From Massilia frigida (GTDB lineage: Bacteria; Pseudomonadota; Gammaproteobacteria; Burkholderiales; Burkholderiaceae_D): a stretch of DNA of 64,000 nucleotides. The notes under the pieces were generated by a model, which ran no database searches, was not told the DNA's origin, and saw only the letters and a program-made list of their open reading frames with translations. Where the stretch lies: positions 1 through 64,000 of the forward strand of contig NZ_WHJG01000035.1 of NCBI RefSeq assembly GCF_011682175.1, in the 5' to 3' direction. Position numbers and translations under genes: made by a program. Below are positions 1-25,218 of this stretch, one piece after another (the stretch's first letter is position 1; the number at the start of each line of letters is the position of its first letter).

Positions 1-37
1 ATGGTGTGGGCGTTTTGATTAAGCGTTAGAAACTAAA

Positions 38-241
38 TCATGCCAGAAATGGGCGCCCACCCCCACCTTTTCGCTTGCGCTGCCAAGCAATTTTCATCCG
101 TTCCGCTAGTTTTGCAAGAGGCTCATAGGTGACCGAGGCGTTCGACTCTTCCATGACGTACCAGGAAGATCGCACGCTGGTGATGTGGTGCGCACAAGCG
201 GCGAGCGCGCTTCCCAGGACGACGATCAGCAGCCTTCTCAT
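38..241 (-). CDS. small lipoprotein, function unknown
   Basis: A 67-residue protein with an N-terminal hydrophobic segment ending in the lipobox LAAC (Cys16), so it is probably a lipid-anchored envelope protein. Beyond the signal peptide it has a short polar body and a basic Gly-rich tail with no recognisable domain. Its ATG overlaps the stop codon of the patatin-like gene by 4 bp (ATGA), which implies translational coupling and makes the small gene credible. The coupling suggests it works with the phospholipase at the membrane; that role is inference. Confidence 0.7.
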   Translation of the reverse strand: MRRLLIVVLGSALAACAHHITSVRSSWYVMEESNASVTYEPLAKLAERMKIAWQRKRKGGGGRPFLA

Positions 242-3200
242 TGCCTGCCTCCGTCCCCGGCACTCACATTCGTTCTCGGATGGGCACGGTTCACACCCTC
301 CTCGATTCCGACCAATCTTTTACCGATTTCCGCTGACTCGAGCATTTTCTTTGTGTCATCAAGCTTATTTAAGATCAAGCCCAAGTGCGGATCGGAGACG
401 ACGACCGGATCCTTTTTCAAGGCCTCTCTGAATTTAAGCAAGACGTCCAGGGTGACGATCGGTGCGGCTGCTGAGTCCTTGCCACGCGCCAGCTTCATCA
501 ATTCGATTTCGGATCGCAGTAAAGCATGCATCTCGGCGACCGTGCGCGCGCTGTCGGCATTCACGGCGCCGACCGATCTTTCCAGTTGCGCTGTGGCGGA
601 GAGGAGTTGCGTGAATCGCTCGGTAAGCGCTGCTTGAAAGGCATCTGCGTTGAGGTCGACAGTCACGTGAACGTTGTGCTGCCCCGCTGCTCCTCCGTCA
701 GAGCCTGGGGCCGCTGGGGCCGGGGGGAACGCCTGACCTAAGGCAACAATTGCCGCGAGGCCGAGCGCCACGACTGCCGGAATAGCGACTGAACTCAAAC
801 TCATCAACCCGGTGGCGCTCAACATGTGCAAGGCGCCACTGTTGTCGCCTGCTGCGACGGGGACCTCGCTATTGATCTCCGATGCGGCCACTTCAGCTTC
901 GCTGGCGTCGACCGCGCCCCTCTCGGGCGCCGGCCAAGCGCCTCCTGCCCTAGCATCGCGACCGAGAATCTTGTCGCGCATAACACTGTGGTAGCCCAAT
1001 TCCCGATAGCTTTCAAATCGCACCTCGTCAAAAAATTGATCGGCTGTCGGATGGTGCGGAAAGGGATTGCGCTGATTCTTTTTTGCCAGAGCCGCGTAGC
1101 GGGTGATGTCGAGCGGTTCATCGCCGCTCAGCAAGGGTTTGATGTAAATCAGGACGCCATCGGTATCGTCGCCGTCGATGTCGGAATAACGAATGGTCGC
1201 CACCGAAGAGTGCTGATGCTTGTTCAAATCGCCGCGCGACCATTTTGGCGTCGGCAAGCCATGAGGAAAGACGATCGAGATGCCCAAGTCGATACGGATC
1301 TTCCGGACGGCATTCTCCAGGTCTTCAAACTGATACTTCGGATCGCAGCCAGCGTCGACCAAGACGATATGGTGACAGCGGCGTCGCACCATTTCATACA
1401 GTCCCAAATTTTCAAAATGCCCGCCGTCCGATAAATAGACATAAGCATTTTCATCGGTCGTACTTGCCAGCGATTCTTTTACCAACGAGGCCATGCCTCC
1501 CTTCGGTTCGCTGCGATCCCAACATTTTTTGCCGGCGTTGCCCGGATTGGGAAGCCACCAGCCGAGGCGAATATTAAAGAAAGTCATGGCGAAGGCGACC
1601 AGTGCCGATGTGTGATAGCCCATGTTCGGCGTTGCCGCCGCGCCAGAGATCGTCATGGCGCGCGCCAGAGAAATGCCATCTTGTCCGGTATAGGTGCCGG
1701 AGGGCTGAAACCCGGTGCAGGCAGCGCCCGCATGTAAGGGGGAAATCGTGTAACCGGCGGCCTTGCGCTGCTGCCATTCCAGGCGGCTACTCGATGGCTT
1801 GACCAGATTGAGGGCAATGTTCACCACGTGAAAGAGCTTACGGTCTGATCGATGCCTGGCATTCATCGCGTTGAATAAGTCGCGCATATTGCGGTTGTCG
1901 TTCGGGTCAAAGCCGGTGAATGGGTTCGGGTCCCGCCGGCTGTTGGATGCTCCCAAATACGCCCTGACGAGGCGGTTTCCGTACATGTTGTGCAGGGAAA
2001 AAGTGTTTGCACCAACAAAATATGATGAAGCGAACATCAGCGCCAGCAGACAAATGAAAATGGCGGCCACACTGCCGATCGGGGCTGACCTCGTAAGGTT
2101 AGCGTATTTTTCTGCGTGCGTCTGGCCGGACGAGTCCACGCCACACGCTACCGCGAGCACAAAACTGATCGCTATAACGATCGTAACGATAAAAACGGCG
2201 GCAGAGATTTCGAAAACCCGGTCGCCCAATGTTGACACCGCACTTTTCAGCTTACGCTGTACTGCGGAACCATGCTTGCTCCAATATCCATATGCGCCTG
2301 TCGCCAAGCCGAGCAGTCCTGCTGACCCGGCTGCCTCTTTCCCCCATTTGCATTCCAGAACCAGCCACGGTCCGAGGATAACCACAGAGGTAACGATAAG
2401 CCATGCAACTATCGTCCAGAAGATGTAAGCACTGGCGCGCGCCCACCATTCTCTTTCATCTTCGCGCGTATGGGTGGGATGCGACAGGCCCACATGAAGT
2501 GTCATGCAGATCCAGAGCGCGGCCAGCAGCGCCGGAACGCCAACGATCGCATACTTGCCGGAGAAATCGAATCCTGCATCGACGGCCCCGCCGCGAAAGG
2601 CCAGGCCGCCAACGAATTGTGCGATTGTGAGCAGGAGCGTACCTGACAGGGCCCCGGCGATGGTGAGCGGAATCATGCCGGCCCAGCGATTGTCCCGACT
2701 ATGCGGGTTGCTTGGCTGCAGAAGAACAGCGGTCGCTTTGCAAGCAAATAATAAGACCGCACCACAAAAGGGAAAGAAAATGGCGCGAGGAAGATATGGC
2801 ATGCCACGATGCTGGCTGAGAGCAGGAACGATCCAGCTGAGTAGCACGTTTGCGATCAAAATCGGCAGGTAGCAGTGGCCGATAAAGCTATTTTTGTTCG
2901 GGGGAGTTGTGGAATAGCCTGGGAGATTCCTGAGTATGTTCAAGAACCCAAAAATGCCGATGCTGAAGCTTAGGGTGAGCAATATCCAGAACGACCAGTT
3001 GTTCGGGTTTCTCATGAAGTGGAGGAGCATTGCCAAATGCGCGCGGGGCAGCATGATCAGCGCCGCCAGCAAAGGAAGCAGCACCATCCAGTGTAAAGCC
3101 AGGTTGCGCACGAACGTCGCCACCAAGGTCACCAAATCCATCGACAATCCATGTACCGGACTCAGGTAGTTGCTGTACGCCCGTAGCCGCTTGATCTGCG

Positions 3201-3678
3201 CTGGCTCCGGCGCAGCTGTCCTTGCAGGCGGGAGAGGATCCGCTGCAATCCTGTTAATCACAGCGGCAGTATCCCCGCCACTGCGCTCGATCCAACTTGA
3301 AAGCCAGCTAGCAATATATCCGCCGCCGGAAACCGATGACATGTAGTGAAATTGCTGCAGCCACCCCTGCTTCGCCAGCGCCTGGATGACGCCAAGCCCA
3401 AACGTTGCACTTCGTACGCCCCCACCGGACAGGCATAACGCCGAACGCTTATCATGGACTGGCAGATCGTGGATGCATCGACGCAAATAGATTTCGCGCC
3501 GCCGATCATTGCACTCCTCATCGCTGCAACTACCTCGGTCTTGCGCCGATAAGGTGCCAGCGTCGAATGCACCGTTCCGCTGTGCTGCGGCCGGTAGTGG
3601 ATGATGGAGAAACTCAAACTCGGCTTCCAGGACTTCGATTAGTCGCAATGGACGCGCGCTGGCATTTTCTTGAGTCAT
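238..3678 (-). CDS. patatin-like phospholipase with internal multi-pass membrane region
   Basis: A predicted lipid acyl hydrolase of the patatin family. Numbered from a GTG at 3741, the oxyanion motif SGGGVR is at about residues 105-110, the nucleophile motif SVSGGGY follows (Ser138), and the catalytic Asp lies much later in SDGGHFENLG. Between the two halves are about nine hydrophobic segments (roughly residues 205-580), and one more lies near the C terminus. The active site is therefore built from segments flanking a membrane domain, far longer than a 300-residue soluble patatin. I chose the ATG at 3678; the in-frame GTG at 3741 lacks a Shine-Dalgarno sequence. The downstream lipoprotein gene overlaps its stop codon. 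The substrate is unknown. Confidence 0.85.
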   Translation of the reverse strand: MTQENASARPLRLIEVLEAEFEFLHHPLPAAAQRNGAFDAGTLSAQDRGSCSDEECNDRRREIYLRRCIHDLPVHDKRSALCLSGGGVRSATFGLGVIQALAKQGWLQQFHYMSSVSGGGYIASWLSSWIERSGGDTAAVINRIAADPLPPARTAAPEPAQIKRLRAYSNYLSPVHGLSMDLVTLVATFVRNLALHWMVLLPLLAALIMLPRAHLAMLLHFMRNPNNWSFWILLTLSFSIGIFGFLNILRNLPGYSTTPPNKNSFIGHCYLPILIANVLLSWIVPALSQHRGMPYLPRAIFFPFCGAVLLFACKATAVLLQPSNPHSRDNRWAGMIPLTIAGALSGTLLLTIAQFVGGLAFRGGAVDAGFDFSGKYAIVGVPALLAALWICMTLHVGLSHPTHTREDEREWWARASAYIFWTIVAWLIVTSVVILGPWLVLECKWGKEAAGSAGLLGLATGAYGYWSKHGSAVQRKLKSAVSTLGDRVFEISAAVFIVTIVIAISFVLAVACGVDSSGQTHAEKYANLTRSAPIGSVAAIFICLLALMFASSYFVGANTFSLHNMYGNRLVRAYLGASNSRRDPNPFTGFDPNDNRNMRDLFNAMNARHRSDRKLFHVVNIALNLVKPSSSRLEWQQRKAAGYTISPLHAGAACTGFQPSGTYTGQDGISLARAMTISGAAATPNMGYHTSALVAFAMTFFNIRLGWWLPNPGNAGKKCWDRSEPKGGMASLVKESLASTTDENAYVYLSDGGHFENLGLYEMVRRRCHHIVLVDAGCDPKYQFEDLENAVRKIRIDLGISIVFPHGLPTPKWSRGDLNKHQHSSVATIRYSDIDGDDTDGVLIYIKPLLSGDEPLDITRYAALAKKNQRNPFPHHPTADQFFDEVRFESYRELGYHSVMRDKILGRDARAGGAWPAPERGAVDASEAEVAASEINSEVPVAAGDNSGALHMLSATGLMSLSSVAIPAVVALGLAAIVALGQAFPPAPAAPGSDGGAAGQHNVHVTVDLNADAFQAALTERFTQLLSATAQLERSVGAVNADSARTVAEMHALLRSEIELMKLARGKDSAAAPIVTLDVLLKFREALKKDPVVVSDPHLGLILNKLDDTKKMLESAEIGKRLVGIEEGVNRAHPRTNVSAGDGGRQ

Positions 3679-4014
3679 AAGGCCCCGCAAAAGTTGGGCA
3701 GTAATCGCAAAAAAATGCCGGCGGTGCAGTGAGCGAGCCACGCGCCGGCAATTATACTTCTAGCATGTAGACTGATTAATATACGCCAAAAATCAGCGTG
3801 CGCCGGAGGAATATGTTTTTGACACGTATTTACAACGGTCCGGTTATTTCGTTGCATAACCACTTGGCAACCGCACCTTGGTCTTGGGCGGGAACTTAGA
3901 GTCCGGGATAACGCAATAGCGTCCGGGACAGATTGCATTTTGCGGAGAAACCCATCCACGAACCACCCGTGCGCCACGGCATGCGAGATGCATGGCGCCG
4001 CCGACGTAGCCTGC
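3679..4014. other. intergenic region upstream of the patatin gene
   Basis: About 335 bp without a credible gene. AT-richer than its surroundings near 3750-3850, which would suit a promoter for the leftward patatin gene. An 8-base direct repeat (GTCCGGGA) occurs twice near 3900-3930, close to where the duplicated gdhA fragment begins. No recognisable element otherwise. Confidence 0.5.
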
Positions 4015-4506
4015 CCCCGCTCAGTTCATCACGGATACAAGCCGCGCACCTCGCGCCTGCAGCACGCGCGTGCACGCCACCACGAACGCGGCCGTCCTCA
4101 GCGACACGTCCTTGTCCTGCGCCACCTGCCAGATGGCTGCGAACGCATCGCGCATGATGCGCGTCAGGCGCGCGTTGATGTCTTCCTCGCTCCAGAAAAA
4201 GCTCGAGAAGTCCTGCACCCATTCAACGTAGCTGACCGTGACACCGCCCGCGTTGGCGATCACGTCCGGCACTACCAGTACGCCGTTCTCGCGCAGGATG
4301 TCGCCGGCCTCCGGCGTGGCCGGTCCGTTGGCGCCCTCCAGGATGATGCGCGCGCGAATCTGGCCGGCGTTATCGTTGGTGATCTGCTGCTCCAGCGCGG
4401 CCGGAATCAGGATGTCGCAATCGACGTTCCAGAAGCGCTCCGGCGCAATGCGGTCCTCGCGGCCGGCAAAGCCCACCACGCTGCCCGTCTGCGCCACGTG
4501 CGCCAG
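4015..4506 (-). pseudogene. decayed 3' fragment of glutamate dehydrogenase
   Basis: This stretch matches the last ~490 bp of the intact gdhA at 8194-8687, in the same orientation, with about twenty mismatches and a 2-bp gap by eye. It encodes only the C-terminal part of the enzyme (from [13 protein letters not shown] onward). The 2-bp loss near the end changes the terminal residues from AREVRGLYP to [11 protein letters not shown]. The 5' two-thirds of the gene is missing; the fragment starts exactly at an IS66 tnpB remnant. It cannot make a dehydrogenase. It is best read as a partial duplication, not an independent acquisition. Confidence 0.9.
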
Positions 4507-4577
4507 GCCGTTGATGACTTGCGCATGTCGTGGTGGCCCGTCGCCAGGTACACCATGCCTTGCGGCGTGCACCACAT
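4507..4577 (-). pseudogene. IS66 tnpB remnant (first ~23 codons)
   Basis: The ATG at 4577 overlaps the tnpA stop codon (TAATG), the usual coupled arrangement of IS66 accessory genes. The translation [20 protein letters not shown] matches the conserved start of IS66 TnpB, which normally continues KSINGLA. Here one base is missing after AAGTC, shifting the frame, and the sequence then runs directly into the gdhA fragment. The remainder of tnpB and the tnpC transposase are absent. Confidence 0.75.
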
Positions 4578-4858
4578 TAGCGCAGCACCGCCGGGACAGC
4601 GCCCAGCCACTCCATGTGTGCCGGGCTGCCCAGGCGTATTGGCGTCTCCACTTCCAGCATGGCGGCGCTCCGGGTGGGATCAGGCAGCGCGATGAATGGC
4701 GACGCGGGCGCGCCGGTAGTGGCAAGGCGTTCGCGCCAGTAGTGAACGCTCGCTTCCATGACGCCGATGAAGGCGCACCAGGCGCGCATCGTTTGTCCGG
4801 ATTCGGCCTGTGCCTGCAGACGCGCTGGCCAGCGTTCGTGCTTCGTTGGCTCTTGCAT
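4577..4858 (-). CDS. tnpA: IS66 family accessory protein TnpA-like
   Basis: A 93-residue protein resembling the first ORF of IS66 elements: an N-terminal helix-turn-helix-like stretch ([20 protein letters not shown]...VHYWRERLA) and a C-terminal region ending just before a coupled tnpB start. In complete IS66 elements TnpA works with TnpB and the DDE transposase TnpC. No tnpC is present in this window, so the element cannot move by itself. The protein is a little shorter than usual. The ATG at 4858 is chosen because upstream residues do not fit the family. Confidence 0.7.
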
Positions 4859-4939
4859 GTCCGTGACTCCTGAGTCGATGGAGCCCCGCTTCCGGATGCC
4901 GAAAATGAGCAATGGAAGGTGGGTAAACAGACCGTTTAC

Positions 4940-5259
4940 TTCCTGGTTCGGAAAGTTATGTACGTTATGCGCCTGCACATGGCGAAAGACGCATAGATAC
5001 AAATGGTCAAACTGGTTAGTCTACATTCACCGAAGCAATTTTCGTAACCATGGCTTCGGCATGCATCAGATATGGCGCGTTCCAGTCGGCTTAAAGCACG
5101 CAATTCGCGACGCTACTTGGCACAAGCGGACCAACGGCTTGAGATCGAAATATGCATGTTGCATAGACCTATAAGCCCGGCATGCCGTTCACCAAATACC
5201 GATGGACATAGCCGGACAAAAACACAGAAATCAACTAACCAAATGTTGGGGAGACACGC
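4940..5259. other. upstream region of the TonB-dependent receptor gene
   Basis: About 320 bp between the IS66 remnant and the receptor. It is AT-richer than average and has no convincing ORF. A weak sigma-70-like pair, TTGAGA (5139-5144) and CATAGA (5162-5167) with a 17-bp spacer, could drive the receptor. No Fur-like or other operator was recognised. Confidence 0.35.
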
Positions 5260-8109
5260 GTGAAAGAGAAATCGATTTGTGCAGCGATACGACTTCTATG
5301 TATGACAGGTCTGATCGGCGGCAGTACTGCATTTTGCCTGAGCGCTAACGCTCAGGAGGCGGGAATACAGCGAGTGGAAATCACTGGCTCGGCGATCAAA
5401 CGCATCGCCAAGGAAGGGGCGCTGCCGGTTCAATTTTTGAGCGCGGCGGATATCCAAAAAACCGGCGCCAAAAGCGTTGAAGAGCTCGTTCAGTCGCTCT
5501 CATCGATGCAAGGCTTTACCACTGCATCGGAGTCCGTGAACGGCAGCGGCGGCGGCGTTCAAAATGCCTCGATCCACAGTATCGGAGCCGCTTATACGCT
5601 GGTATTGCTGAACGGTCGCCGCATGGCGTCCTACGGATCGGGCAGCGCCGTCAACCTTGCCAGCATTCCGATGAGCGCGGTCGAGCGCGTGGAAATTCTG
5701 ACTGACGGTGCTTCAACCTTATACGGGTCCGATGCCATTGCCGGCGTCATCAATTTCATTCTCAAAAAAAACCAGCAGGATTTTCGCTTTGATGCTGGCG
5801 TGAATCGCCCAGGAAAAAAAGGTGGAGGAAACTCCAATTTCTCGCTATCCAAAGGGTTCGGGGACCTCGACAAGGATGGCTACAACTTCCTGGTGACGTA
5901 CGCGCATGACGCTCAACGCGAACTCAAGGCGAAGGATCGTGATTTCGCAAAAACCGGACTGCGGCGCTTTACCGAAAACGGAAAGAATTATTCCACTTAC
6001 CTTCTCGCGGCCAATACCGCACCGGCGTCGGCCACGTTGAGCCTCAAGGACAACACGGTGAAGATATTCTCGCCTAGCTACTATAAAACCGGCGCCTGCG
6101 CTCCTGACACCGCATTTGTTGGCACGGCAGACGACAAGTCGTGTTGGTTCGACTACGCGGGGACTGTGCAGCTGGTTCCTAAGTCTGAGCGGGACAGTAT
6201 CTTCTCGTCTTTCAACATGAAGCTCAATCCTGACCTGAATATTTTTGGTGAGCTTGTACTCTCAAAATACAAGCAGACGGCGCAATATGCGCCCGCTGCT
6301 CAGCGCCTGACTCTGCCGTTGAGCGGGGCTCTGTATGCCAATGAAGTGGCGCCGTATCTTGGTAAGATTGGCGTGTCGCCAGGCGACGTGGCATCCGCTT
6401 CGATGAATATCCGGTTCACGGACGCCGGAGGCAGGGCCAGGGACTATATTACAGAAGCAAAGCATCTCGCCTTGGGCGCTTCAGGCATGAAGAATGGGTT
6501 CGATTACTCGGCATCGTTTACGCACTCCGAGAATAGTCAGGAATCAAATTTTGTAGGCGGCTTCCTGAGCAAGAATGCCTATAACGACATTGTCGCTTCC
6601 GGTAAGTTCAATCCATTCGGTCCATCGGGTAGTTCGTCTGCTGTTCTGGCGCCGGCAATTCTGCATACCAACGAAAACAAGACCGAAGTAAAACTGGACA
6701 GGATAAGCGGGACGCTCAGCCACGCCTTGTTCGACGCACCTGGTGGCACTTCCCAGTTGGCGCTCAGTGGTGACTATTCGCAGCAACGTTACGATTTCAT
6801 GCCGAGTCCAATCTCGCAGGGGGCGAACGCGCAACAGCCCAATTTTACCGATACCCCTTTGGGTGACTCGGCCGATCACCTGCCTGTCGCGGCCAAGCGC
6901 AACAACTGGGGCGCTTCCGCCGAGTGGATGACGCCGCTGTTCAAGACCTTGGAAGTGACGGCTGCGGCCCGCTACGATGCGTATTCGGCCGTGAAAAACA
7001 GCATGGTCTTCGATCCATCGGACGGCAAGCTGCTGCCTCCAGCGGAACAGGGTAATTCCAACAAGAAGGCGACCTACAAGCTCGCTTTCCGCTTCACTCC
7101 CGTCGAGAATTTGCTGCTCAGGGGATCGTATGGGACGGGCTTCAAGGTGGCGAATATGGATTCGATCGCTTCGCCGACCGTTCAGTCCGGCAATACTTCC
7201 GGGGCGTATGCTTGCCCTGTCAAAGCCCCGGATCCTCGCGCGGCGTACTGTACGGGAACGACGCAGCAGTACTTGCTCACGGGCGGAAATAACCTCTCCG
7301 GGGAAAGTGGGTTGCGGCCTGAGACGTCCAAGCAATACGCAGTTGGTGTTCGATTCGATCCGGTCAAGAGCCTGTCGCTAGGTCTGGATTTGTGGTCGGT
7401 GAACATGAAGGACCAGCTCACTACCCTTCCGGAACAGTTTCCCTTCGCAGATCCGGCCAAATTCAACAATAATTTCTCCGTTGTCTATGATCAGGGTATC
7501 GGCGCCAACAAGCTGGTCACACTGCTTCCGACCTTTAACCTGGCCGCAGCCCGATACCGCGGGATCGACTGGGACAACTCGTATTCAATGAAAACCGGCG
7601 TGGGCAAGTTCGACTTCAAGTGGAACGGCACCTACATGTTGAAATCCGAGGTCGACGTGCCTGGATCTCCTACGGAAAGCAGCGTTGGCCGGTTTGATGC
7701 ATACAACAACGTCACCGCGCGCATTGTTTCGCGGCTGTCGGCCAGCTGGGCCAGTCATGATACCTACACCAACACCTTGGCGGTCAATTTCCGCTCCGGT
7801 TATCACGACCAGGAGTTGACGGCAGACGACAACACCTTAAAGCTGGTCAACGATGACGGCACCTTGCCGGTCGGGTTCACCGGTCTTAAACGTGACGTTA
7901 AAGCGTTTACGACCGTTGACTGGCAAACGCGAATTGTGCTGAAACAATACGCTAACCTGGGCATTTCCCTGGGCATTCGTAATGTGTTTGATGCAGAACC
8001 ACCTCTCAGTATTCGTACTGCGGGCGGCGGAAATCAAGCGGGATTCGACGCGCGCTATGCAAGTCCGTTGGGGCGTCAGTTCTACGTCACTGGCGGCGTC
8101 AGCTTCTAA
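5260..8109 (+). CDS. TonB-dependent outer-membrane receptor
   Basis: A 949-residue protein with a signal peptide (hydrophobic core, cleavage after SANA), a TonB-box/plug region (QRVEITGSAIKR, then LVLLNGRR, NLASIPMSAVERVEIL and TDGASTLYGSDAIAGVINF, residues ~30-170) and a long beta-barrel ending in aromatic Phe (YVTGGVSF). It should take up a large or scarce substrate using TonB energy. No STN signalling domain precedes the plug. The start is GTG at 5260, preceded by GGGGAGA. Substrate not deducible: the neighbours are an IS66 remnant and two gdhA copies, and no partner transporter or degradative gene is adjacent. It lies within a segment bounded by direct repeats. Confidence 0.93.
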   Translation: MKEKSICAAIRLLCMTGLIGGSTAFCLSANAQEAGIQRVEITGSAIKRIAKEGALPVQFLSAADIQKTGAKSVEELVQSLSSMQGFTTASESVNGSGGGVQNASIHSIGAAYTLVLLNGRRMASYGSGSAVNLASIPMSAVERVEILTDGASTLYGSDAIAGVINFILKKNQQDFRFDAGVNRPGKKGGGNSNFSLSKGFGDLDKDGYNFLVTYAHDAQRELKAKDRDFAKTGLRRFTENGKNYSTYLLAANTAPASATLSLKDNTVKIFSPSYYKTGACAPDTAFVGTADDKSCWFDYAGTVQLVPKSERDSIFSSFNMKLNPDLNIFGELVLSKYKQTAQYAPAAQRLTLPLSGALYANEVAPYLGKIGVSPGDVASASMNIRFTDAGGRARDYITEAKHLALGASGMKNGFDYSASFTHSENSQESNFVGGFLSKNAYNDIVASGKFNPFGPSGSSSAVLAPAILHTNENKTEVKLDRISGTLSHALFDAPGGTSQLALSGDYSQQRYDFMPSPISQGANAQQPNFTDTPLGDSADHLPVAAKRNNWGASAEWMTPLFKTLEVTAAARYDAYSAVKNSMVFDPSDGKLLPPAEQGNSNKKATYKLAFRFTPVENLLLRGSYGTGFKVANMDSIASPTVQSGNTSGAYACPVKAPDPRAAYCTGTTQQYLLTGGNNLSGESGLRPETSKQYAVGVRFDPVKSLSLGLDLWSVNMKDQLTTLPEQFPFADPAKFNNNFSVVYDQGIGANKLVTLLPTFNLAAARYRGIDWDNSYSMKTGVGKFDFKWNGTYMLKSEVDVPGSPTESSVGRFDAYNNVTARIVSRLSASWASHDTYTNTLAVNFRSGYHDQELTADDNTLKLVNDDGTLPVGFTGLKRDVKAFTTVDWQTRIVLKQYANLGISLGIRNVFDAEPPLSIRTAGGGNQAGFDARYASPLGRQFYVTGGVSF

Positions 8110-8115
8110 AACAAA

Positions 8116-8140
8116 GGGAAGTGCTCCTGGAGCACTTCCC
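8116..8140. terminator. hairpin between convergent TonB receptor and gdhA genes
   Basis: A perfect inverted repeat, arms GGGAAGTGCTCC and GGAGCACTTCCC around a single T. Read leftward it is followed by TTTGTTTT, fitting an intrinsic terminator for the gdhA transcript. Read rightward it sits 7 bp after the receptor stop codon but lacks a T tract. Confidence 0.75.
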
Positions 8141-8166
8141 GCGTTAGTGAGGTGTTGGATCGTCAC

Positions 8167-8195
8167 GGTTTTGGCAAGCTGAGCTTGCCAAAACC
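8167..8195. terminator. second hairpin downstream of gdhA
   Basis: A perfect 14-bp inverted repeat, arms GGTTTTGGCAAGCT and AGCTTGCCAAAACC with one base between. It lies 12 bp beyond the gdhA stop codon, before the 8116-8140 hairpin. The 3' arm lacks a trailing T run, so it may stabilise the mRNA end instead of terminating transcription itself. Confidence 0.6.
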
Positions 8196-8687
8196 CCGCT
8201 CAGTCCATCACGGATACAGGCCGCGCACCTCGCGCGCCTGCAGCACGCGCGTGCACGCCACGACGAACGCGGCCGTCCTCAGCGACACGTCCTTGTCCTG
8301 CGCCACTTGCCAGATGGCTGCGAACGCATCGCGCATGATGCGCGTCAGGCGGGCGTTGATGTCTTCCTCGCTCCAGAAAAAGCTCGAAAAATCCTGCACC
8401 CATTCAAAGTAGCTGACCGTGACACCGCCCGCGTTGGCGATCACGTCCGGCACCACCAGCACGCCGTTCTCGCGCAGGATATCGTCGGCCTCCGGCGTGG
8501 TCGGTCCGTTGGCGCCCTCCAGGATGATGCGCGCGCGAATCTGGGCGGCATTCTCCCTGGTGATCTGCTGCTCCAGCGCGGCCGGAATCAGGATGTCGCA
8601 ATCGACGTTCCAGAAGCGCTCCGGCGCAATGCTGTCCTCGGCGCCGGCAAAGCCCACCACGCTGCCCGTCTGCGCCACGTGCGCCAG
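8194..8687 (-). repeat. direct repeat copy 2 (3' end of intact gdhA)
   Basis: The counterpart of 4015-4506, in the same orientation. The two copies bracket about 3.7 kb containing the IS66 remnant and the TonB receptor. Homology ends exactly after GCGCCAG (8687 and 4506). Recombination between the copies would delete roughly 4.2 kb and leave a single gdhA 3' end. Confidence 0.85.
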
Positions 8688-9532: not shown

Positions 9533-10258
9533 TTAGTGGATGATCTTGGCCAGGAAATCGCGCGCGCGGTCCGAGCGCTGGGTGCCGAAGAACTCGTCCT
9601 TGGTGCAGTCCTCGATGATCTTGCCCTGGTCCATGAAGACGATGCGGTTGGCCACCCGCTTGGCGAAACCCATTTCGTGGGTGACCACCATCATCGTCAT
9701 GCCCTCCTGCGCCAGGCCGACCATCACGTCAAGCACTTCGTTGATCATTTCGGGGTCGAGCGCGGAGGTGGGCTCGTCGAACAGCATCGCGATCGGATCC
9801 ATCGACAAGGCCCTGGCAATGGCCACGCGCTGCTGCTGGCCGCCCGACAGCTGGCCCGGAAATTTATCCTGCTGCGCCAGCAGGCCGACCCGGTCCAGGT
9901 ACTTCAAGCCCTTGGCGTTGGCCTCGTCGGCGCTGCGCCCGAGCACCTTGACCTGCCCGATGGTCAGGTTTTCCCGGATCGACAAATGCGGGAACAGCTC
10001 GAAATTCTGGAACACCATCCCGATCCGCGCGCGCAGCTTGGACAAATTGGTTTTCGGGTCGCCCACGGCCACGCCGTCCACGCTGATGCTCCCTTGCTGG
10101 AACGGCTCAAGGCCGTTGACAGTCTTGATCAGGGTCGACTTGCCCGAACCCGACGGGCCGCAGATGACCATCACATCGCCTTTGCCCACCTGCGTGGTGC
10201 ACTCGGTGAGCACCTGGAACTTGCCGTACCATTTGCTGATATTGTTAAGTTCTATCAT
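9533..10258 (-). CDS. gltL: glutamate/aspartate ABC transporter ATPase
   Basis: A 241-residue ATPase of the polar amino acid ABC class: Walker [10 protein letters not shown] (residues 34-42), signature LSGGQQQR, Walker [12 protein letters not shown] and H-loop VVTHEMGFA. It energises the GltJK permease in the inner membrane. The ATG at 10258 follows a GGAGAAG ribosome site. It is fourth of the transporter genes in the operon gltI-gltJ-gltK-gltL-gdhA. Polar amino acid ATPases look alike, so the Glu/Asp assignment rests on the locus. Confidence 0.93.
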
Positions 10259-10281
10259 TTTTCTTCTCCAATTGGAAAGCG

Positions 10282-10974
10282 CTAGCGGATGATCGCCACG
10301 CGCTGCTGCAGGCGGCGCACCAGGGACGACAGCCCCAGGCCCAGCACCAGATACACCAGCGCCACGAAGCTGTACATTTCGACCAGGCGGCCGTCGCGCT
10401 GGGCGACCTTGCTGGCGGCGCCGACAAAATCGGGAATCGACAGCACGTACACCAGCGACACGTCCTGGAACAGGACGATGGTCTGCGTCAGCAGCAGGGG
10501 AATCATGTTGCGAAACGCCTGCGGCAGCACCACGTGGCGCATGGTCTGCCCGTAGGTCATGCCCAGCGCCCGCCCCGCCCAGACCTGGCCGCGCGCGATC
10601 GAGCCGATCCCGCCGCGCATGATCTCGCAGTAGTAGGCCGCCTCGAACATGATGAAAGTGATCAGCGCCGACGTGAAAGCGCCCACCTGGACCGGCTCCT
10701 TGGCGCCGATGATCCAGGCGGCGATATACGGCACCAGGAAGTAGAACCAGAAGATCACCAGCACCAGGGGGATCGAGCGCACCAGGTTGACGTAGCCGGA
10801 CGCCAGCAGCGACACCGCGCGGATGCTGGACAGGCGCATCAGCGCCAGCAGCGTCCCCAGCACGATCCCGCCGGTCATGGCCAGCGCGGTCAGCTTGACC
10901 GTGAAAACCATCCCGGTCTGGAACAGATAGACCCACGAGCGTGCGATCACGTCGAAATCGAAGTCGAGCGCCAT
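10282..10974 (-). CDS. gltK: glutamate/aspartate ABC transporter permease
   Basis: A 230-residue HisM/GltK-type inner-membrane permease with about five hydrophobic segments. The EAA coupling loop, around ARGQVWAGRALGMTYGQTMR, contacts the ATPase. The start codon lies one base beyond the gltJ stop, so the permease genes are translationally linked. It should form a heterodimer with GltJ. Confidence 0.92.
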   Translation of the reverse strand: MALDFDFDVIARSWVYLFQTGMVFTVKLTALAMTGGIVLGTLLALMRLSSIRAVSLLASGYVNLVRSIPLVLVIFWFYFLVPYIAAWIIGAKEPVQVGAFTSALITFIMFEAAYYCEIMRGGIGSIARGQVWAGRALGMTYGQTMRHVVLPQAFRNMIPLLLTQTIVLFQDVSLVYVLSIPDFVGAASKVAQRDGRLVEMYSFVALVYLVLGLGLSSLVRRLQQRVAIIR

Positions 10975-10975
10975 C

Positions 10976-11725
10976 TCAGTGTCCCCCCGCCGCGCCGCCG
11001 GCGACGATCAAGCCGGGAATTGCGACTTTTTTCTCGATCCGGTGCATGATGAATACGACCACGGCGTTGACCAGCACGTAGACCAGGGTCGCGGCGCTGA
11101 AGGCCTCGAATACCTGGAACGAAAACTCCTGGATTGCGCGCGCGCTGGCAGTCAGTTCCATCAGGCCGATGGTCAAGGCCACCGAACTGTTCTTGATGAT
11201 GTTGAGGAACTCGCTGGTCAGCGGCGGCAGGATCACCCGCGCCGCCATCGGCAGCAGCACGTAGCGGTAGGTCTGCGCCAGCGTCAGGCCGAGCGCGGTG
11301 CCGGCCATTTTTTGCCCGCTCGGCAAAGCGGCGATGCCGGTCGAGACCTGGACCGCCACCCGCGCCGAGGTAAACAAGCCCAGGCACAGCACCGCCGTGA
11401 CGAACGGCGCGTTGGGCAGGGCCTTGATCCAGTCGCCGGCGGCTTGCGGCAGCACGTCGGGAGCGACGAAATACCACAGGAACATCTGCACCAGCAGCGG
11501 CACGTTGCGAAACAGTTCGACATAGCCGTTGGCCAGGCGTACCAGCCATTTGTTCGGCAGGGTGCGCACGGTGCCGACCACCAGGCCGAACGCCAGCGCC
11601 ATGATCCAGGCCGTCAGCGCGGTGGCCAGGGTCCACATCAAGCCTGAGAATAAGGTGTCGAGATAGGTGCCGGCACCATCGGGCGCAATCTCCCAGAAGA
11701 TGCGCCAGTTCCAGTGATAGTTCAT
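10976..11725 (-). CDS. gltJ: glutamate/aspartate ABC transporter permease
   Basis: A 249-residue permease of the same family as GltK, with an N-terminal aromatic extension (NYHWNWRIFWEIAPDG) characteristic of GltJ/AatQ proteins and an EAA-type loop (LPSGQKMAGTALGLTLAQTYR). It lies between gltI (30-bp gap) and gltK (one-base gap). With GltK it forms the translocation pore for acidic amino acids. Confidence 0.93.
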   Translation of the reverse strand: MNYHWNWRIFWEIAPDGAGTYLDTLFSGLMWTLATALTAWIMALAFGLVVGTVRTLPNKWLVRLANGYVELFRNVPLLVQMFLWYFVAPDVLPQAAGDWIKALPNAPFVTAVLCLGLFTSARVAVQVSTGIAALPSGQKMAGTALGLTLAQTYRYVLLPMAARVILPPLTSEFLNIIKNSSVALTIGLMELTASARAIQEFSFQVFEAFSAATLVYVLVNAVVVFIMHRIEKKVAIPGLIVAGGAAGGH

Positions 11726-11755
11726 AGTATTGTTCCAGGCTGGGCTACAGAAAAA

Positions 11756-12706
11756 TTAACGCTTTTTGGAGGCTGCTTTTTGCGCGTCCGGCACCACCGC
11801 ATACGCGGCCGGGTCGGGCGAATCGGTCGGCCTGGCGAGCACGTTGATCAGCTCGGGCGGCATCGGGAAGTGCAGGTTGATGCCCTTGGGCGGAATCGGC
11901 GACAGGAACCACTTGTGGTACAGGCGATACACGTCGTCGCCCGACTTGTAATAGGCGATGAGGGCGTCGTCGACCGCCTTCTTGAAGGCCGGGTCGTCCT
12001 TGCGCAGCATGATCCCGTACGGCTCGACCGACAGCGCGTCGGCCGTGATCTGGTAGTCGTCCGGCCGCTTGGCGTTGGCGCGTTGCGACGCCAGCAGGAT
12101 GTCGTCGTTGGCCTCGGCCGCGGCGCGCCCGGTCTCGACCATCAGGAACGATTCGGGATGGTCCTTGCCGACCACGATGTTCATGCCCAGGTTTTGCTCG
12201 CGGTTGAGGATCGTCATCTGCTTGAGGGTCGAGGTGCCGGCAGTGGCCACCAAGGTCTTGCCCTTCATGTCGGCCAGCGTCAGGATGTTCGACGTCTTTT
12301 TGGCCAGCAGGCGGTTGGCGACCACGAACATGGTGGGGGCGAAGGCGACCTGCTGCTGGCGCTCCAGGTTGTTGGTGGTCGAGCCGCATTCGAGGTCGAT
12401 CGTTCCGTTGGCCATCAGCGGGATGCGGTTGGCCGAGGTCACCGGATTCATCGCCACCTTCAGGGAGCCCAGGCCCGGCTGCTTTTGCAGGGCGGCGACC
12501 ACCTTCATGCACAGGTCGATCGAATAGCCCTGGTACTGCTGCTTGTCGTCCAGGTAGGAAAAGGGAATGGAGCCGTCGCGCACGCCCAAGGTGATGACGC
12601 CGGTTTTCTTGATCTTGGCCAGCGTGCCGGTCGGTTCCTGCGCCTGCGCGGCGCTGCCGAACAGGGTTGCACTGAGCAGTACAACGAGATATTTTGCATG
12701 ATTCAT
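11756..12706 (-). CDS. gltI: glutamate/aspartate periplasmic binding protein
   Basis: A 316-residue extracytoplasmic solute receptor with a signal peptide ending GSAAQA and family motifs GVITLGVRDGSIPFSYLD and YQGYSIDLCMKV. GltI/AatJ proteins deliver Glu and Asp to the GltJKL complex; related AatJ proteins also bind Gln and Asn. I chose the ATG at 12706 because it gives a normal signal peptide; an upstream in-frame ATG at 12739 would add a polar extension. It follows the porin gene after 80 bp. A paralogue is encoded at 19000-19881. Confidence 0.93.
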   Translation of the reverse strand: MNHAKYLVVLLSATLFGSAAQAQEPTGTLAKIKKTGVITLGVRDGSIPFSYLDDKQQYQGYSIDLCMKVVAALQKQPGLGSLKVAMNPVTSANRIPLMANGTIDLECGSTTNNLERQQQVAFAPTMFVVANRLLAKKTSNILTLADMKGKTLVATAGTSTLKQMTILNREQNLGMNIVVGKDHPESFLMVETGRAAAEANDDILLASQRANAKRPDDYQITADALSVEPYGIMLRKDDPAFKKAVDDALIAYYKSGDDVYRLYHKWFLSPIPPKGINLHFPMPPELINVLARPTDSPDPAAYAVVPDAQKAASKKR

Positions 12707-12786
12707 GTCAGATAATTCCAAAGGAGGTGAGAAAAGCACGAAGCGATAAACCGGCCGCCGGGCGGCCGGGGAGGAACTCGGCCGGA

Positions 12787-13779
12787 TCAGAAGGCGTGGC
12801 GGATGCCAAGGTTGGCACCGGTGTTGCCGGTGCCATCCGTGGTGGCGTTGCCGACCTTGAAGGTGGCGCCATTGCGGTTGCTGATGCGCGCATACGCCGC
12901 ATACACGTCAGTGCGTTTGGACAGGGCATAGGTGTAGCCGAGCCCCCATTGGGAAGCGTCGCGGTTGGCGTGCGTGGTGTCGTCATGCCGGACATACGAG
13001 GTGGTCACCTTGTGCGGGCCGAAAGGCACGTTCACGCCGACGATCGCGTCCTGGCTGCGCGCACCGAGCAGGCCCTTGTTGCGCGCGTAGCCCAGATGCC
13101 CCTCGAGCACGCCCCAGTCGTACCTGGCGCCGAGCAGGGTATTGGCGCTGCTGTCGGTGGCCAGCGCATTTTGCTGCTGATGCCAGCCCAGCCTGACGGC
13201 CAGGGCCTTGGCCGTATACGACAGCACCGTGCTGTAGGCGCGCTTGGCGGCTGAATTGTCCGGCACTTCACCCATGCCCACCGCCAGCTCCGCCGCAAAG
13301 CCAGATAATGTCGGCGACGTGTAGCCGACCATGTTGTCGAGGCGGGCGTTGGAGGCCGTGATGTTGCCCGCCTGGCCGGCCAAACCGTCGCAGAACGGAT
13401 CGACGACGTCGCGCATGGCGCGGTAGTACGGCGAATACTGGCGCCCGAAGCTGACCGAACCGGGCGTGCCGGACAGGCCCAGGTAGGCCTGGCGTCCGAA
13501 CAGCAGGCCGCCCTGGGCCGCGCTGCCGGTATCGATCTTCATGCCGTTTTCCAGGACGAAGTAGGCCTTGACGCCGCCGCCCAAGTCTTCCGTGCCTTTG
13601 AAGCCCAGCCGCGAACCGGAGGCGACACCGCTGCCCAGGGTGTTGACACTGCCCTCGGCGCCGCCCGTTTCGCGCACAAAGCCGACGTCGGCCACGCCAT
13701 ACACGGTCACCGCCGACTGCGCCATGGCGGCCGCCGGAACCAGGCTCGATGCCATGATGGCGATAATGATCTTATTCAT
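12787..13779 (-). CDS. general porin, neisserial/OmpC type
   Basis: A 330-residue outer-membrane protein: signal peptide (cleavage after AMA), first strand QSAVTVYGVADVGFV, conserved SRLGFKGTEDLGGG, GRQAYLGLSG near the constriction loop, and C-terminal beta-signal NLGIRHAF ending in Phe. Beta-proteobacterial porins of this family form trimers for small hydrophilic solutes. Its place directly upstream of gltI suggests it is the outer-membrane entry route for acidic amino acids; that specificity is inference. No canonical -24/-12 promoter was found upstream. Confidence 0.92.
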   Translation of the reverse strand: MNKIIIAIMASSLVPAAAMAQSAVTVYGVADVGFVRETGGAEGSVNTLGSGVASGSRLGFKGTEDLGGGVKAYFVLENGMKIDTGSAAQGGLLFGRQAYLGLSGTPGSVSFGRQYSPYYRAMRDVVDPFCDGLAGQAGNITASNARLDNMVGYTSPTLSGFAAELAVGMGEVPDNSAAKRAYSTVLSYTAKALAVRLGWHQQQNALATDSSANTLLGARYDWGVLEGHLGYARNKGLLGARSQDAIVGVNVPFGPHKVTTSYVRHDDTTHANRDASQWGLGYTYALSKRTDVYAAYARISNRNGATFKVGNATTDGTGNTGANLGIRHAF

Positions 13780-13878
13780 TTGTTTCCTCTATTGTTTATC
13801 GTTTTTATATTTGATCGGCAATACCCGTCCATTCCACGCCGTGCATGGAACAGCTGAATTGACGCGTTGGGGAGTAAG

Positions 13879-14154
13879 CTAAATGGCGCCGCCGGGATAA
13901 TCCGGAGCGTGCCGCAGGATATGCTTGGCCTTGTGGACCTGTTGCATAATGCCGAGTGCATGGCCGCGGAATACGTGGCCTGCCGGCGTTAGCGAGGGAG
14001 GATTGCAGCTGCGGTCCACCAGCGTGGCGCCGAGCCAGGTTTCAAGCGAGCGGATGCGCCGGCTGAACGCCGGCTGGCTGGAGTGCCGCTCGCTGGCGGA
14101 ACGCGAAAAGCTGCGCGTATCGGCCAGGCAAAGAAAGTCTTCGACCCATTTCAT
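13879..14154 (-). pseudogene. truncated LysR-type regulator (DNA-binding domain only)
   Basis: A 91-residue ORF matching the N-terminal winged HTH of LysR-type regulators (MKWVEDFLCLADTRSFSRSA, then SQPAFSRRIRSLETWLGATLVDR). Full members are about 300 residues; here a stop codon follows 20 or so residues after the HTH, and no effector-binding domain is found downstream in any frame before the porin. It is probably a relic, although a free DNA-binding domain could in principle still act. It lies just upstream of the porin in the same direction. Confidence 0.75.
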
Positions 14155-14535
14155 GTCCACTGTTGTCTCCCGCTTATATTTATTTTTAATGGGCCGGCGC
14201 GATTGACCGTCACCCATTGCACTGCCGATTAGTCGGCATGTGTTTCCATCCCTGCCTCCTATCCATAGCAGTTTGCATGCCAGCAATGTAAATATTGCGA
14301 GAAGCGCCGCACCGCCTTGATTGGAATGGATATTTTCAATTATCAAGAAACGCCGATCAGCAGCGCGCGTGCGGTATTCCACACAAACCCGTTTTGCGGC
14401 GTGTGGATTTGGAAACCTGAGCTGTGGGATATTGCCGAAACTAATATCCGGCAGAATTTTCTGGGGTAAGATAGACCGCAGTCGCCTCCTCTTGCCGGAC
14501 CGCGCCAACCCTAACCACACGCGCCGAGGTGAGCA
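14155..14535. promoter_or_regulatory. divergent region upstream of sensor kinase
   Basis: About 380 bp, AT-rich relative to the genes around it, between the leftward LysR remnant and the rightward sensor gene. It holds an inverted repeat GCAAT-GTAAAT-ATTGC at 14283-14298. No clear sigma-54 element (GG-N10-GC) was found in either direction. Confidence 0.4.
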
Positions 14536-16329
14536 TTGCAGGCGTTCCGACAATTTGCCGTTCCCCGCTCCGCCGGCACGTTCGCGGCATGGGCCGCGAT
14601 CATCGGCCTGTGCGCCGCCGTCGTCTTCGTGTATGCGTGGAGCGAACGGCGCGGCTATGCGCAGCTGGGCGAAGTCCAGGCGCAGCAGCTCGACCTGTAC
14701 GCGGCGGCCCTCGAAAGCGAACTGGGCCGGCATGAATACCTGCCCGGCATCGTCGCCCTCGATCATGACGTGCATGCCCTGCTGCGCAACCCGGGCGGCG
14801 CCGGCCTGGGCGAGCGCGCCAACAAGCGCCTGACCAGCCTGAACGCGCGCGCCGGCTCGCTCGCCATCTTCGTGCTCGACACGGCGGGCCTGGTGCGGGC
14901 GGCCAGCAACTGGTACCAGCCGGAGACCAGTGTCGGCATGGATGTGGCAGCCCTGCCGTATTTTTCCGGCGCCATGCAGGGCGGGACTGCGCGCTATTTT
15001 TCGCGCGCGGCGGCGCGCAACTCGCCCGAGTATTATTTCGCCCAGCAAGTGCTGCAAGGCGGCCTGGTGCTCGGCGTGGTGGTGGTCAAGATCAGCCTCG
15101 ACCCGATCGAATCGACCTGGGTCGCGTCGGCCGCGCAGTCGCACAACGATTTTTTCATGGTGCTCGACGCCGACGGCGTGATCGTGCTCTCGTCCGCGCC
15201 CCAGTGGCGCAACCGCAAGGCCGACCTGCAGGCCATCGACCAGGGCAAGCCGGTCGTCGCCTGGCGCGCGCTGAACCCGGGCGCGCCATCGACCCGCTAC
15301 GCAAGCCAGAGCCGGCCGATGGCGCGCCAGGGCTGGCGCCTGCTCACGCTCACCAATGCCGCGCCGGTCAAGCTGCAGGCCGGGCAAAACGCCGTGGTCG
15401 CTGGCCTGCTGGCCGGCTTCCTCGGTTTGCTCGCGCTGTTCGTGGCGATGCGCCGGCGCGCGATCGCGAGCCGCCTGCACGCGCGCGAAGCGCTGCAGCG
15501 CGCGCACGACGAACTGGAACGGCGGGTGGCCGACCGCACCGCCGAATTGCATGCGATGAACGGCGCACTGCTGCACGAAATCGGCGAACGCGAACACGCC
15601 GAACAGGTGCTGCGCGCTTCCCAGGACGACCTGCTACACGCCAGCAAACTCGCTCTGCTCGGCCAGATGTCGGCCGGTATCACGCACGAAATCAGCCAGC
15701 CGCTCACCGCGCTGCGCTCGCTTTCCTTCAATGCCCAGCTGCTGCTCAAGCGCGGCGACCTGGCGCGCGTGGAAAAAAACCTGCGCTCGGTCAGCGACCT
15801 GACTGAACGCATGGGCCGCCTGACCGAGCAGCTCAAATCCTTCTCGCGCAAGACGCCCCTGGCCATGGCCCCGCTCACCCTGTCCAAGGCGGTCGACAAT
15901 ACCTTGCAGCTGCTGGAGAACCGGATCCGCACCGAACACGCCTGCGTGCAGCTGGACCTGGCGCCCTCGGTGCGCGCCCTGTGCGACGCCAACCGGCTCG
16001 AACAAGTGCTGATCAACCTGTGCGCCAATGCGCTCGACGCCATGCTGGACGCGCCGCTCAAGCACCTGGCCATCCGCCTGTGGAGCGATGACGGACGCGC
16101 CCACATCCAGGTCAGCGACAGCGGCGCCGGCATTCCGGAAGCGGTGATGGCGCGCCTGTTCGAGCCGTTTTTCAGCACCAAGCTGCCGGGCCAGGGTCTG
16201 GGACTCGGCCTGGCCATTTCGGCCGACATCGTGCGCGAGTTCGGCGGCACCTTGCGCGCGTCGAATTGTCAAGGCGGTGCCGTCTTCGAACTGGACCTGC
16301 CACTAGTAGAGGAAACAAGTCATGTATGA
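14536..16329 (+). CDS. DctB/AauS-like membrane sensor histidine kinase
   Basis: A 597-residue kinase: TM1 at about residues 15-37, a periplasmic double-Cache-like sensor, TM2 at about 285-305, a coiled linker (ALQRAHDELERRVADRTAEL), H-box ITHEISQPLTALRSL with phospho-acceptor His384, N-box NLCANALDAM, and G-boxes DSGAGIPEAV and GQGLGLGLAIS. The start is TTG at 14536, 5-6 bases after GAGGTG; no in-frame ATG fits. It overlaps the downstream regulator by 8 bp. DctB-family kinases sense dicarboxylates, and AauS/GltS relatives sense acidic amino acids. The neighbours point to glutamate/aspartate as the signal. Confidence 0.88.
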   Translation: MQAFRQFAVPRSAGTFAAWAAIIGLCAAVVFVYAWSERRGYAQLGEVQAQQLDLYAAALESELGRHEYLPGIVALDHDVHALLRNPGGAGLGERANKRLTSLNARAGSLAIFVLDTAGLVRAASNWYQPETSVGMDVAALPYFSGAMQGGTARYFSRAAARNSPEYYFAQQVLQGGLVLGVVVVKISLDPIESTWVASAAQSHNDFFMVLDADGVIVLSSAPQWRNRKADLQAIDQGKPVVAWRALNPGAPSTRYASQSRPMARQGWRLLTLTNAAPVKLQAGQNAVVAGLLAGFLGLLALFVAMRRRAIASRLHAREALQRAHDELERRVADRTAELHAMNGALLHEIGEREHAEQVLRASQDDLLHASKLALLGQMSAGITHEISQPLTALRSLSFNAQLLLKRGDLARVEKNLRSVSDLTERMGRLTEQLKSFSRKTPLAMAPLTLSKAVDNTLQLLENRIRTEHACVQLDLAPSVRALCDANRLEQVLINLCANALDAMLDAPLKHLAIRLWSDDGRAHIQVSDSGAGIPEAVMARLFEPFFSTKLPGQGLGLGLAISADIVREFGGTLRASNCQGGAVFELDLPLVEETSHV

Positions 16330-17683: not shown

Positions 17684-17698
17684 CCGCCCGGGCAGGGG

Positions 17699-17718
17699 GC
17701 CTGCCCTGCAGGGCAGGC
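17699..17718. terminator. bidirectional hairpin between regulator and asparaginase genes
   Basis: A perfect 20-bp palindrome, half-site GCCTGCCCTG followed by its complement, between two convergent genes (stops at 17683 and 17732). It probably terminates or insulates both transcripts. It is nearly identical to the palindrome at 18938-18959. Confidence 0.65.
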
Positions 17719-17731
17719 TCCGAGGTGGAAC

Positions 17732-18817
17732 TTAGTAGGTATAGAACATCCGCTGAATTTCCTTGGTGCTGGTGGTCTTGGTCAGCGCCAGCATCAGCAG
17801 GATGCGCGCCTTCTGCGCATTGAGGGTGTCGGCCACCACGAAATCGAGCTCGTCGTCATTGGCTTCGCCGTTGCGCGCCAAGATGCCCTGGCCCACGCGG
17901 CTGGCCCGCACCACGACCGCGCCCTTGGCATGCGCGGCAACCAGCGCCGGCTTGACCTTGTTGGCCAGGCTGCCGTCGCCCACGCCGGCGTGGATGATGC
18001 CCTTGGCGCCCGCGGCCATGAACGCATCGACTGCTACCGGTCCGACGTTCGCATAGCCATACACGATGTCCACTTGCGGCAGCACCTGCAGCGCGCCGAT
18101 GTCGAATTCGGTCTCGCTGGTGTGCTTGCGCATTTGCTGGCGATAGAAGAATGGCTTGCTGCCCTGGATATAACCGAGCAGGCCCAGTTCCGGCGTGCGG
18201 AACGAGTCCAGGGTCGAGGTATTGACCTTGGTCACGTCGCGCGCCGACTGGATCTGGTCGTTCATCGCCACCAGCACGCCCTTGCCGACCGCCTCGGGAC
18301 TGGCCGCCAGCATCACCGAATTGTACAAATTGATCGGGCCGTCGGCCGAGATCGCGGTCGATGGCCGCATCGCGCCCACCAGCACCACCGGCTTGCGGCT
18401 CTTGACCACCAGGTTCAGGAAGTACGCGGTTTCTTCCAGCGTGTCGGTGCCGTGGGTGATGACGATGCCGTCCACGTTCGATTGGGCCAGCAGCACGTTG
18501 ACGCGCTTGGCCAGGGTGAGCCAGTGCTCGTTGGTCATGTTCTCGCTGGCGATCTGGAACACCTGTTCGCCGCTGACGTTGGCCACCTTGGCCAGTTCGG
18601 GCACCGCCGCGATCAGGCGCTGCACGCCGACTGTGGCGGCGGTGTAGCCGACCGTGGTAGTGCTGCTGGCGCCGGAGCCGGCGATGGTGCCGCCGGTGGC
18701 CAGGATGGTCACGTTGGCCAGCTTGGGCGTGGCAGTTTCCGCCTGCGTGGCCGAGGCCATGCAGAACCAGAGGGCAAACAGCGCGATCATCGATTGCGCG
18801 GGATTTTTGTGAAGCAT
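17732..18817 (-). CDS. ansB: type II (periplasmic) L-asparaginase
   Basis: A 361-residue enzyme hydrolysing asparagine (and often glutamine) to aspartate/glutamate and ammonia. It has a signal peptide (cleavage after ATQA), the first catalytic Thr in ILATGGTIAG, and the second active-site motif in VDGIVITHGTDTLEETAYFL. The Lys/Asp region GAMRPSTAISADGP and C-terminal YGYANV are also conserved. Export places it in the periplasm, where its products are substrates of the Glt transporter. The start at 18817 follows AGGAGA. Upstream in the same direction is a GltI-like gene. Co-control with aat/glt genes by AauRS is known in pseudomonads. Confidence 0.95.
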   Translation of the reverse strand: MLHKNPAQSMIALFALWFCMASATQAETATPKLANVTILATGGTIAGSGASSTTTVGYTAATVGVQRLIAAVPELAKVANVSGEQVFQIASENMTNEHWLTLAKRVNVLLAQSNVDGIVITHGTDTLEETAYFLNLVVKSRKPVVLVGAMRPSTAISADGPINLYNSVMLAASPEAVGKGVLVAMNDQIQSARDVTKVNTSTLDSFRTPELGLLGYIQGSKPFFYRQQMRKHTSETEFDIGALQVLPQVDIVYGYANVGPVAVDAFMAAGAKGIIHAGVGDGSLANKVKPALVAAHAKGAVVVRASRVGQGILARNGEANDDELDFVVADTLNAQKARILLMLALTKTTSTKEIQRMFYTY

Positions 18818-25216: not shown

Positions 25217-25218
25217 CC

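Follow-up and report, generated by a model that had tools for sequence, protein, structure and literature searches.

How did the 3' end of gdhA come to lie twice, in the same direction, around a gene for a TonB-dependent receptor, and could the receptor still be removed through this repeat? We analyzed the locus in the first 64,000 nucleotides (hereafter, the window) of a contig of Massilia frigida, comparing it with 17 genomes of the genus, its own (G000) included, and with 392 genomes of the family for the receptor DNA.

Anatomy of the gdhA repeat and the IS66 joint

A preliminary description of this DNA had noticed two same-direction copies of about 490 bp, differing by some twenty mismatches and a 2-bp gap, and had placed an IS66 remnant and a TonB-dependent receptor between them. 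The alignment bore this out: copies A and B (Table 1), both corresponding to the gdhA 3' end, aligned over 492 columns with 21 mismatches and a single 2-bp gap (2 gap columns, 95.73% identity), the longest stretch without a difference being 75 bp, and the receptor open reading frame (ORF) and the IS66 end lie in the enclosed segment. Searching the genome itself with copy A returned three matches, consisting of both copies and a 59-bp stretch, which, together with 492 columns at 95.7% identity, ruled out a chance repeat. The gap is a deletion in copy A, located about 20 bp before the gdhA stop. Read in the direction of gdhA, the order is gdhA, a hairpin, the oppositely oriented receptor, some 320 bp, the IS66 terminus, tnpA, the first codons of tnpB, the gdhA fragment, and the flank that adjoins copy A.

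Table 1. Features of the gdhA locus in window coordinates
Feature	Position	Strand	Evidence or remark
Variable segment, presumed glmS side, presumed hotspot cargo	1-3897		contig starts at base 1
Large patatin-like membrane protein, 1167 aa	238-3741	-	
Flank adjoining copy A	3898-4014		directly 3' of gdhA in G007; ~44 bp also 3' of gdhA in G009
Copy A: gdhA 3' fragment (last third), pseudogene	4015-4506	-	2-bp deletion at 4051/4052
7-bp microhomology CTGGCGC (- strand reading) at the IS66 tnpB/gdhA joint	4500-4506	-	G097 IS66 as proxy; gdhA side by reading
IS66 remnant: one terminus (at 4939), tnpA, first codons of tnpB	4507-4939	-	74% over 467 columns to G097 IS66
TonB-dependent receptor, 949 aa	5260-8109	+	barrel PF00593 1.1e-25; Plug PF07715 2.7e-20
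Terminator-like hairpin between convergent receptor and gdhA	8169-8193		sequence reading
Copy B: intact gdhA 3' end plus 14 bp past the stop	8194-8687	-	alignment
Intact gdhA, Glu/Leu/Phe/Val dehydrogenase family, 428 aa	8208-9494	-	PF00208 5.5e-84; PF02812 3.1e-57
Remainder of conserved block: polar amino acid ABC transporter (family-3 binding protein), porin, sensor kinase and sigma-54 regulator, asparaginase-glutaminase, second solute-binding protein	9533-20016		transporter ATPase/permeases by ORF reading

The class of the receptor is clear; its NCBIfam matches all remained below their cut-offs, and the listed solved structures related to it aligned in the plug region only. Matches to the receptor DNA occurred in 14 of the 392 family genomes at E<=1e-100, and identities of 94% or more (94 to 95% in the relatives) were confined to the own genome, G002, G009 (95.3%), and G016, where the gene always lies beside gdhA. 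The nearest distinct relatives, in G007 and G004, share 76% DNA identity with it and lie in a common locus (L036 5286-13959 and L038), where they adjoin an oligopeptide-symporter-like (POT-like) protein, accompanied in G007 by two Xaa-Pro-peptidase-like genes, the scores of all these neighbors being below curated cut-offs; the POT-like transporter was matched in only these 2 of the 17 genus genomes at E<=1e-100. Because of this company, we guess that the receptor takes up peptides. With a DNA identity of only 76%, a direct move of the receptor from the peptide-use locus of G007 or G004 was ruled out. In the sister genus, gdhA of genome G120 also has a convergent TonB receptor downstream, though not the same one (28% identity), together with genes of the sugar/pectin type (L121 2584-5289).

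As a proxy for the IS66 parent, we used the longer IS66 of G097, which contains TnpB-like and TnpC-like ORFs by reading. Compared with this element and the intact gdhA, the fusion point falls inside tnpB, at a 7-bp stretch common to both parents, although, with a proxy at 74% identity, the actual length of the microhomology may deviate from this in either direction. The IS66 terminus is common to several copies, since ten matches in G007 stop at one query point (two sequences inspected). A single IS66 end is left at the locus, with neither a second end nor a target duplication, and we therefore label it a remnant. It is highly improbable that transposition of IS66 was what carried the gdhA fragment or the receptor: an IS66 terminus does lie between the two, but the fragment joins inside tnpB rather than at the end of the element, only one end is present, and the fusion (query 4500-5262) had no listed match in the 17 genus genomes besides the same locus of G016.

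We also considered whether copy A is a functional protein. The joint of G016 forms an open, in-frame TnpB-GdhA chimera of 194 amino acids (L033 10347-10931), in which the TnpB profile PF05717 scored an E value of 0.044, below the curated cut-off; in the window, the tnpB and gdhA frames no longer agree at the joint, while in G002 the joint is gone and stops interrupt the remaining piece of copy A. The ratio pN/pS between copies A and B was 1.01 in G016, 0.61 in G002 (244 bp), and 0.32 in G000, compared with 0 to 0.37 when the group's intact gdhA ends were set against each other (10 pairs). Copy A is thus under relaxed constraint, as seen from the pairs of G016 and G002; the window's own value of 0.32 lies inside the range of intact pairs and alone shows no decay, and decay there is seen from the 2-bp deletion and from the loss of a common frame at the joint. 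A role of copy A as a protein was rejected: the frame of G016 is open, but constraint is lost, and the disagreeing frames in the window and the stops in G002 speak against it as well.

States and age of the locus among relatives

Among the 17 genus genomes, gdhA is present in five (G000, G002, G007, G009, and G016), in which the locus is found in different states. Copy A is complete in G016 (93%), reduced to 244 bp in G002, and was not found in G009 or G007. G009 has the receptor and an IS66 stub: by reading, a 12-base IS66-like terminus lies where the window's IS66 remnant ends, identical at 11 of 12 bases to the IS66 ends of G007 and at 9 of 12 to the window's own. In G007, only one gdhA end is present, the receptor is absent from this place, and the flank left of copy A directly follows gdhA.

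The preliminary description had proposed looking for a relative with a single gdhA 3' end and no receptor at gdhA, and G007 is such a genome. It had also held that a receptor beside gdhA with no second gdhA fragment would speak against it, an arrangement that does occur in G009; because an IS66-like terminus is located at the same point, however, the sequence points to a secondary loss of copy A in that genome. We did not accept G007 as a proven empty site, since an unrooted tree of a 9-kb block joined G007 with G009 (ultrafast bootstrap 97), favoring loss. In an approximately 2-kb comparison with G120 as the outgroup, the AU test did not reject four of the seven trees in which G007 branches first (best p-AU 0.49 and 0.43) and rejected the other three. 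G007 may be an ancestral empty site or an excision product. The receptor tree of the four genomes joined G016 with G002 (support 69) and differed from the block tree.

Past the gdhA stop, homology with the copy-A side exceeds the window's repeat by about 44 bp in G009, by about 20 bp in G002, and, weakly, by a similar length in G016, with almost none in the window. Since it reaches further in these relatives, the original repeat was probably longer than it is now, and the differing lengths of the B-side flank among genomes show that this edge eroded independently.

The claim that the duplication is not recent stands, as G016 has both copies and G002 has part of copy A. Copies A and B diverge by 4.3%, a value to be set beside 2.4 to 4.5% between intact gdhA ends of species in the group (10 pairs) and 10.6 to 11.6% between these ends and the sister genus G120 (5 pairs); a divergence predating the genus, named beforehand as contrary evidence, was thus not found. 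Comparing G000 with G016, we counted five sites at which A agrees with A and B with B, three at which A agrees with B within each genome, and none with a crossed pattern. Such a mixture implies that the copies were partly exchanged or that the sites are homoplasic, and the duplication is probably older than the split of G000 and G016, with later copy exchange or homoplasy.

Recombination at gdhA as the proposed origin

The idea that the receptor entered or was carried by a duplication at gdhA holds insofar as the receptor is tied to the duplication; the direction of the event, the donor, and the recombination route are our reconstruction. With belief and doubt about evenly balanced, we propose that the two gdhA ends are a merodiploid recombination scar, left when homologous recombination at gdhA and an illegitimate IS66-gdhA joint added the receptor. 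DNA of a close relative, consisting of a gdhA 3' end, the receptor, and IS66, would have recombined with the resident gdhA 3' end; before or during this step, the other end of the incoming DNA, inside IS66 tnpB, would have been joined illegitimately to gdhA through the 7-bp microhomology. The route may have been a single crossover of a recircularized molecule or the entry of a linear molecule with one homologous end, and the product would be intact gdhA, receptor, truncated IS66, truncated gdhA, and the old downstream flank. The event would be at least as old as the last ancestor shared by the G000, G002, G009, and G016 gdhA loci; thereafter, copy A would have decayed, and a block of about 15 kb would also have been exchanged between species.

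Several features expected of such a scar are present, namely, gene-end repeats around nonhomologous DNA with one copy intact, the 7-bp joint, and in G007 a single-end relative with the same flank. The 4.3% divergence between A and B, similar to that between intact ends of different species, is what would be expected if the copies had begun as alleles of two related strains. The proposal further draws on the states of the locus in G016, G002, and G009, on the relaxed constraint of copy A, and on a block identity to G009 above that of its flanks. A donor arrangement of gdhA, receptor, and IS66 with no repeat was not found among the 392 family genomes searched for receptor DNA, a set to which the donor need not belong.

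Products of this kind have been obtained in the laboratory. According to PMC3240628, a duplication product was present in 56 of 60 Escherichia coli clones, the duplications measured 109 to 950 bp in the 14 that were sequenced, and they were explained by a single crossover of a degraded, recircularized molecule; the same study cites microhomologies of 3 to 10 bp as usual at the joints of homology-facilitated illegitimate recombination (HFIR). The gdhA case fits both figures. Like the products described there, it combines a direct repeat of a few hundred base pairs of a resident gene end with foreign DNA in between and a new illegitimate joint; unlike them, which arose in the laboratory from a plasmid with a lacZ end and a lacZ that had been disrupted, it is natural, old, and decayed, with gdhA intact and with a 7-bp microhomology and a piece of IS66 at the joint. 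The study also states that three of the four HFIR joints it obtained in E. coli lacked homology, that HFIR is rare, and that resident DNA is usually deleted, all of which count against reading the locus as a scar of this kind. The mixed site patterns of G000 and G016, the deviating receptor tree, and the pN/pS of 0.32 of the window's own pair weigh against it as well. In PMC5361080, HFIR was proposed for orphan modules of the Vibrio type VI secretion system, which resemble our case in having one homologous anchor, one illegitimate joint, and old gene material left downstream; the gdhA locus differs from them in lacking effector/immunity genes and in that its leftover is the inactivated end of a housekeeping gene.

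A serious rival, although we consider it somewhat unlikely, is a tandem duplication of the whole gdhA in situ, with the receptor and IS66 coming to lie between the copies and a deletion at microhomology then removing the rest of IS66 and the 5' two-thirds of the second gdhA. It would produce this anatomy as well, including the microhomology joint between tnpB and gdhA, hence a nearly identical scar, and the flank of copy A is indeed the one found 3' of the single gdhA of G007. It requires more steps, however (duplication, receptor insertion, IS66 insertion, and deletion), and no intermediate was seen in the five gdhA-bearing genomes among the 17 of the genus.

We regard it as very unlikely that the receptor is the cargo of a mobile element that attached at the gdhA 3' end and, in the manner of integrative elements targeting gene ends, supplied a substitute for the 3' end it displaced. 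Such an element would suit a repeat consisting of the 3' end of a gene, the insertion-rich region, and the different receptor convergent with gdhA in G120, but ORF inspection revealed nothing integrase-like between the copies, the repeat ends in the IS66 fusion rather than at a defined core site, and no other insert separates gdhA ends in the five gdhA-bearing genomes of the genus. An attachment site of the tRNA type was discarded, there being no tRNA in the window or in the stretches L033, L034, L035, L138, and L128.

Neighborhood, exchange, and removal of the receptor

The flank of copy A presumably faces glmS, a gene convergent with gdhA that lies about 5.5 kb from it in G016 and about 27 kb in G002, where some 23 kb of the distance is beyond the copy-A piece. 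The site attTn7, at which Tn7 inserts, is located downstream of glmS. The own genome has glmS on contig C186 and the window on C184, both of which begin inside the gap between the two genes (C184 at window base 1). On C186, next to glmS (L160 441-4754), one ORF matched TnsD (PF15978, 3.3e-29) and TniQ (4e-15), and further ORFs matched a second TniQ (6.9e-12) and an AAA_22 ATPase (8e-07). In G003, G007, and G016, repeats resembling Tn7 ends follow the glmS stop at a distance of about 30 bp. Similar motifs occur within the gap in G002 and, in G016 and G007, at 30 to 40 bp from the flank at 3898-4014. The exact end motif marked both sides in G016, occurred on two contigs of G007, and was present at glmS in G003 and within the gap in G002; its exact pattern was not found in C186 of G000, window positions 1 to 4100, G004, or G009. 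Left of position 3897 the genomes differ, with the patatin-like protein in the window, a SIR2-like protein in G007 (on its glmS contig), a TIR-domain protein and a weaker second one in G009, and a P450-like protein (by reading) and others in G002. Neither window bases 1 to 3000 nor the patatin-like protein had a match in the compared stretches of G016, G002, G009, and G007. We infer that the gdhA/glmS gap is an insertion-rich site of the Tn7-like type. The TnsD/TniQ proteins, the AAA ATPase, and the end-like repeats of G003, G007, and G016 resemble Tn7-like insertion sites downstream of glmS; the receptor and both gdhA ends are outside the end-bounded stretch, on the gdhA side of the flank, as neighbors of the hotspot. 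They are located across this flank from the variable segment and represent a separate event. The SIR2-like protein beside glmS in G007 (L159 506-3145) and the TIR-domain proteins near the receptor in G009 (L035 12864-14805), of which one matched strongly and the other weakly, resemble defense cargo.

On the other side, gdhA continues into a block shared at high identity (Table 2), in which the values for G009, G016, and G002 are means of 11 to 12 block and 23 to 27 flank pieces of 1 kb, pieces unmatched or with fewer than 300 aligned bases being dropped.

Table 2. DNA identity (%) of the window's genome to its relatives
Relative	Block (8.7-20 kb)	Right flank (from 34.6 kb)	glmS side (aligned length)
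G009	95.8	83.4	86.9 (4122 bp)
G016	94.9	89.4	93.7 (4138 bp)
G002	95.6	90.2	94.4 (4105 bp)
G007	95.7	85 (3 kb)	90.4 (2751 bp)

G007 behaved like G009. The glmS side ranks G016 and G002 far nearer to G000 than G009, while the block does not. This jump in identity, limited to the block, indicates that about 15 kb with the receptor, gdhA, the ABC transporter, regulators, and asparaginase was exchanged between species. From its gene content, the block appears to serve the use of acidic amino acids and amides. Just past the end of the conserved block in G016, G002, and G009, the window encodes a HipA-like protein (20113-21405, PF07804 2.9e-45), and a nitric oxide reductase-like cluster (22149-27225, cytochrome and COX1-type genes by reading) was matched in the G002 stretch and not in those of G016 and G009.

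The preliminary description had further assumed that recombination could remove about 4.2 kb cleanly. A deletion by recombination would take its 5' side from copy B and its 3' side from copy A, and because of the frameshifting 2-bp deletion about 20 bp before the gdhA stop, clean removal is unlikely in this genome: crossovers over about 450 of the 492 bp would give gdhA the altered C terminus of copy A. It is conceivable, if doubtful, that decay of the repeat fixed a once reversible insertion; crossovers deleting the receptor would nearly always damage gdhA, so that purifying selection on gdhA would protect the receptor, now part of a mobile block for acidic-amino-acid use (glutamate dehydrogenase, ABC transporter, asparaginase, and regulators) spreading among species related to Massilia rubra.

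The event is of a known kind and reveals no new system. The locus provides a well-preserved natural record of how a gene would be added beside a conserved one by recombination at partial homology, with relatives in differing states, namely, both copies, a partial copy, an IS stub only, and a single end, and it suggests that a decayed repeat may make such an insertion hard to undo.
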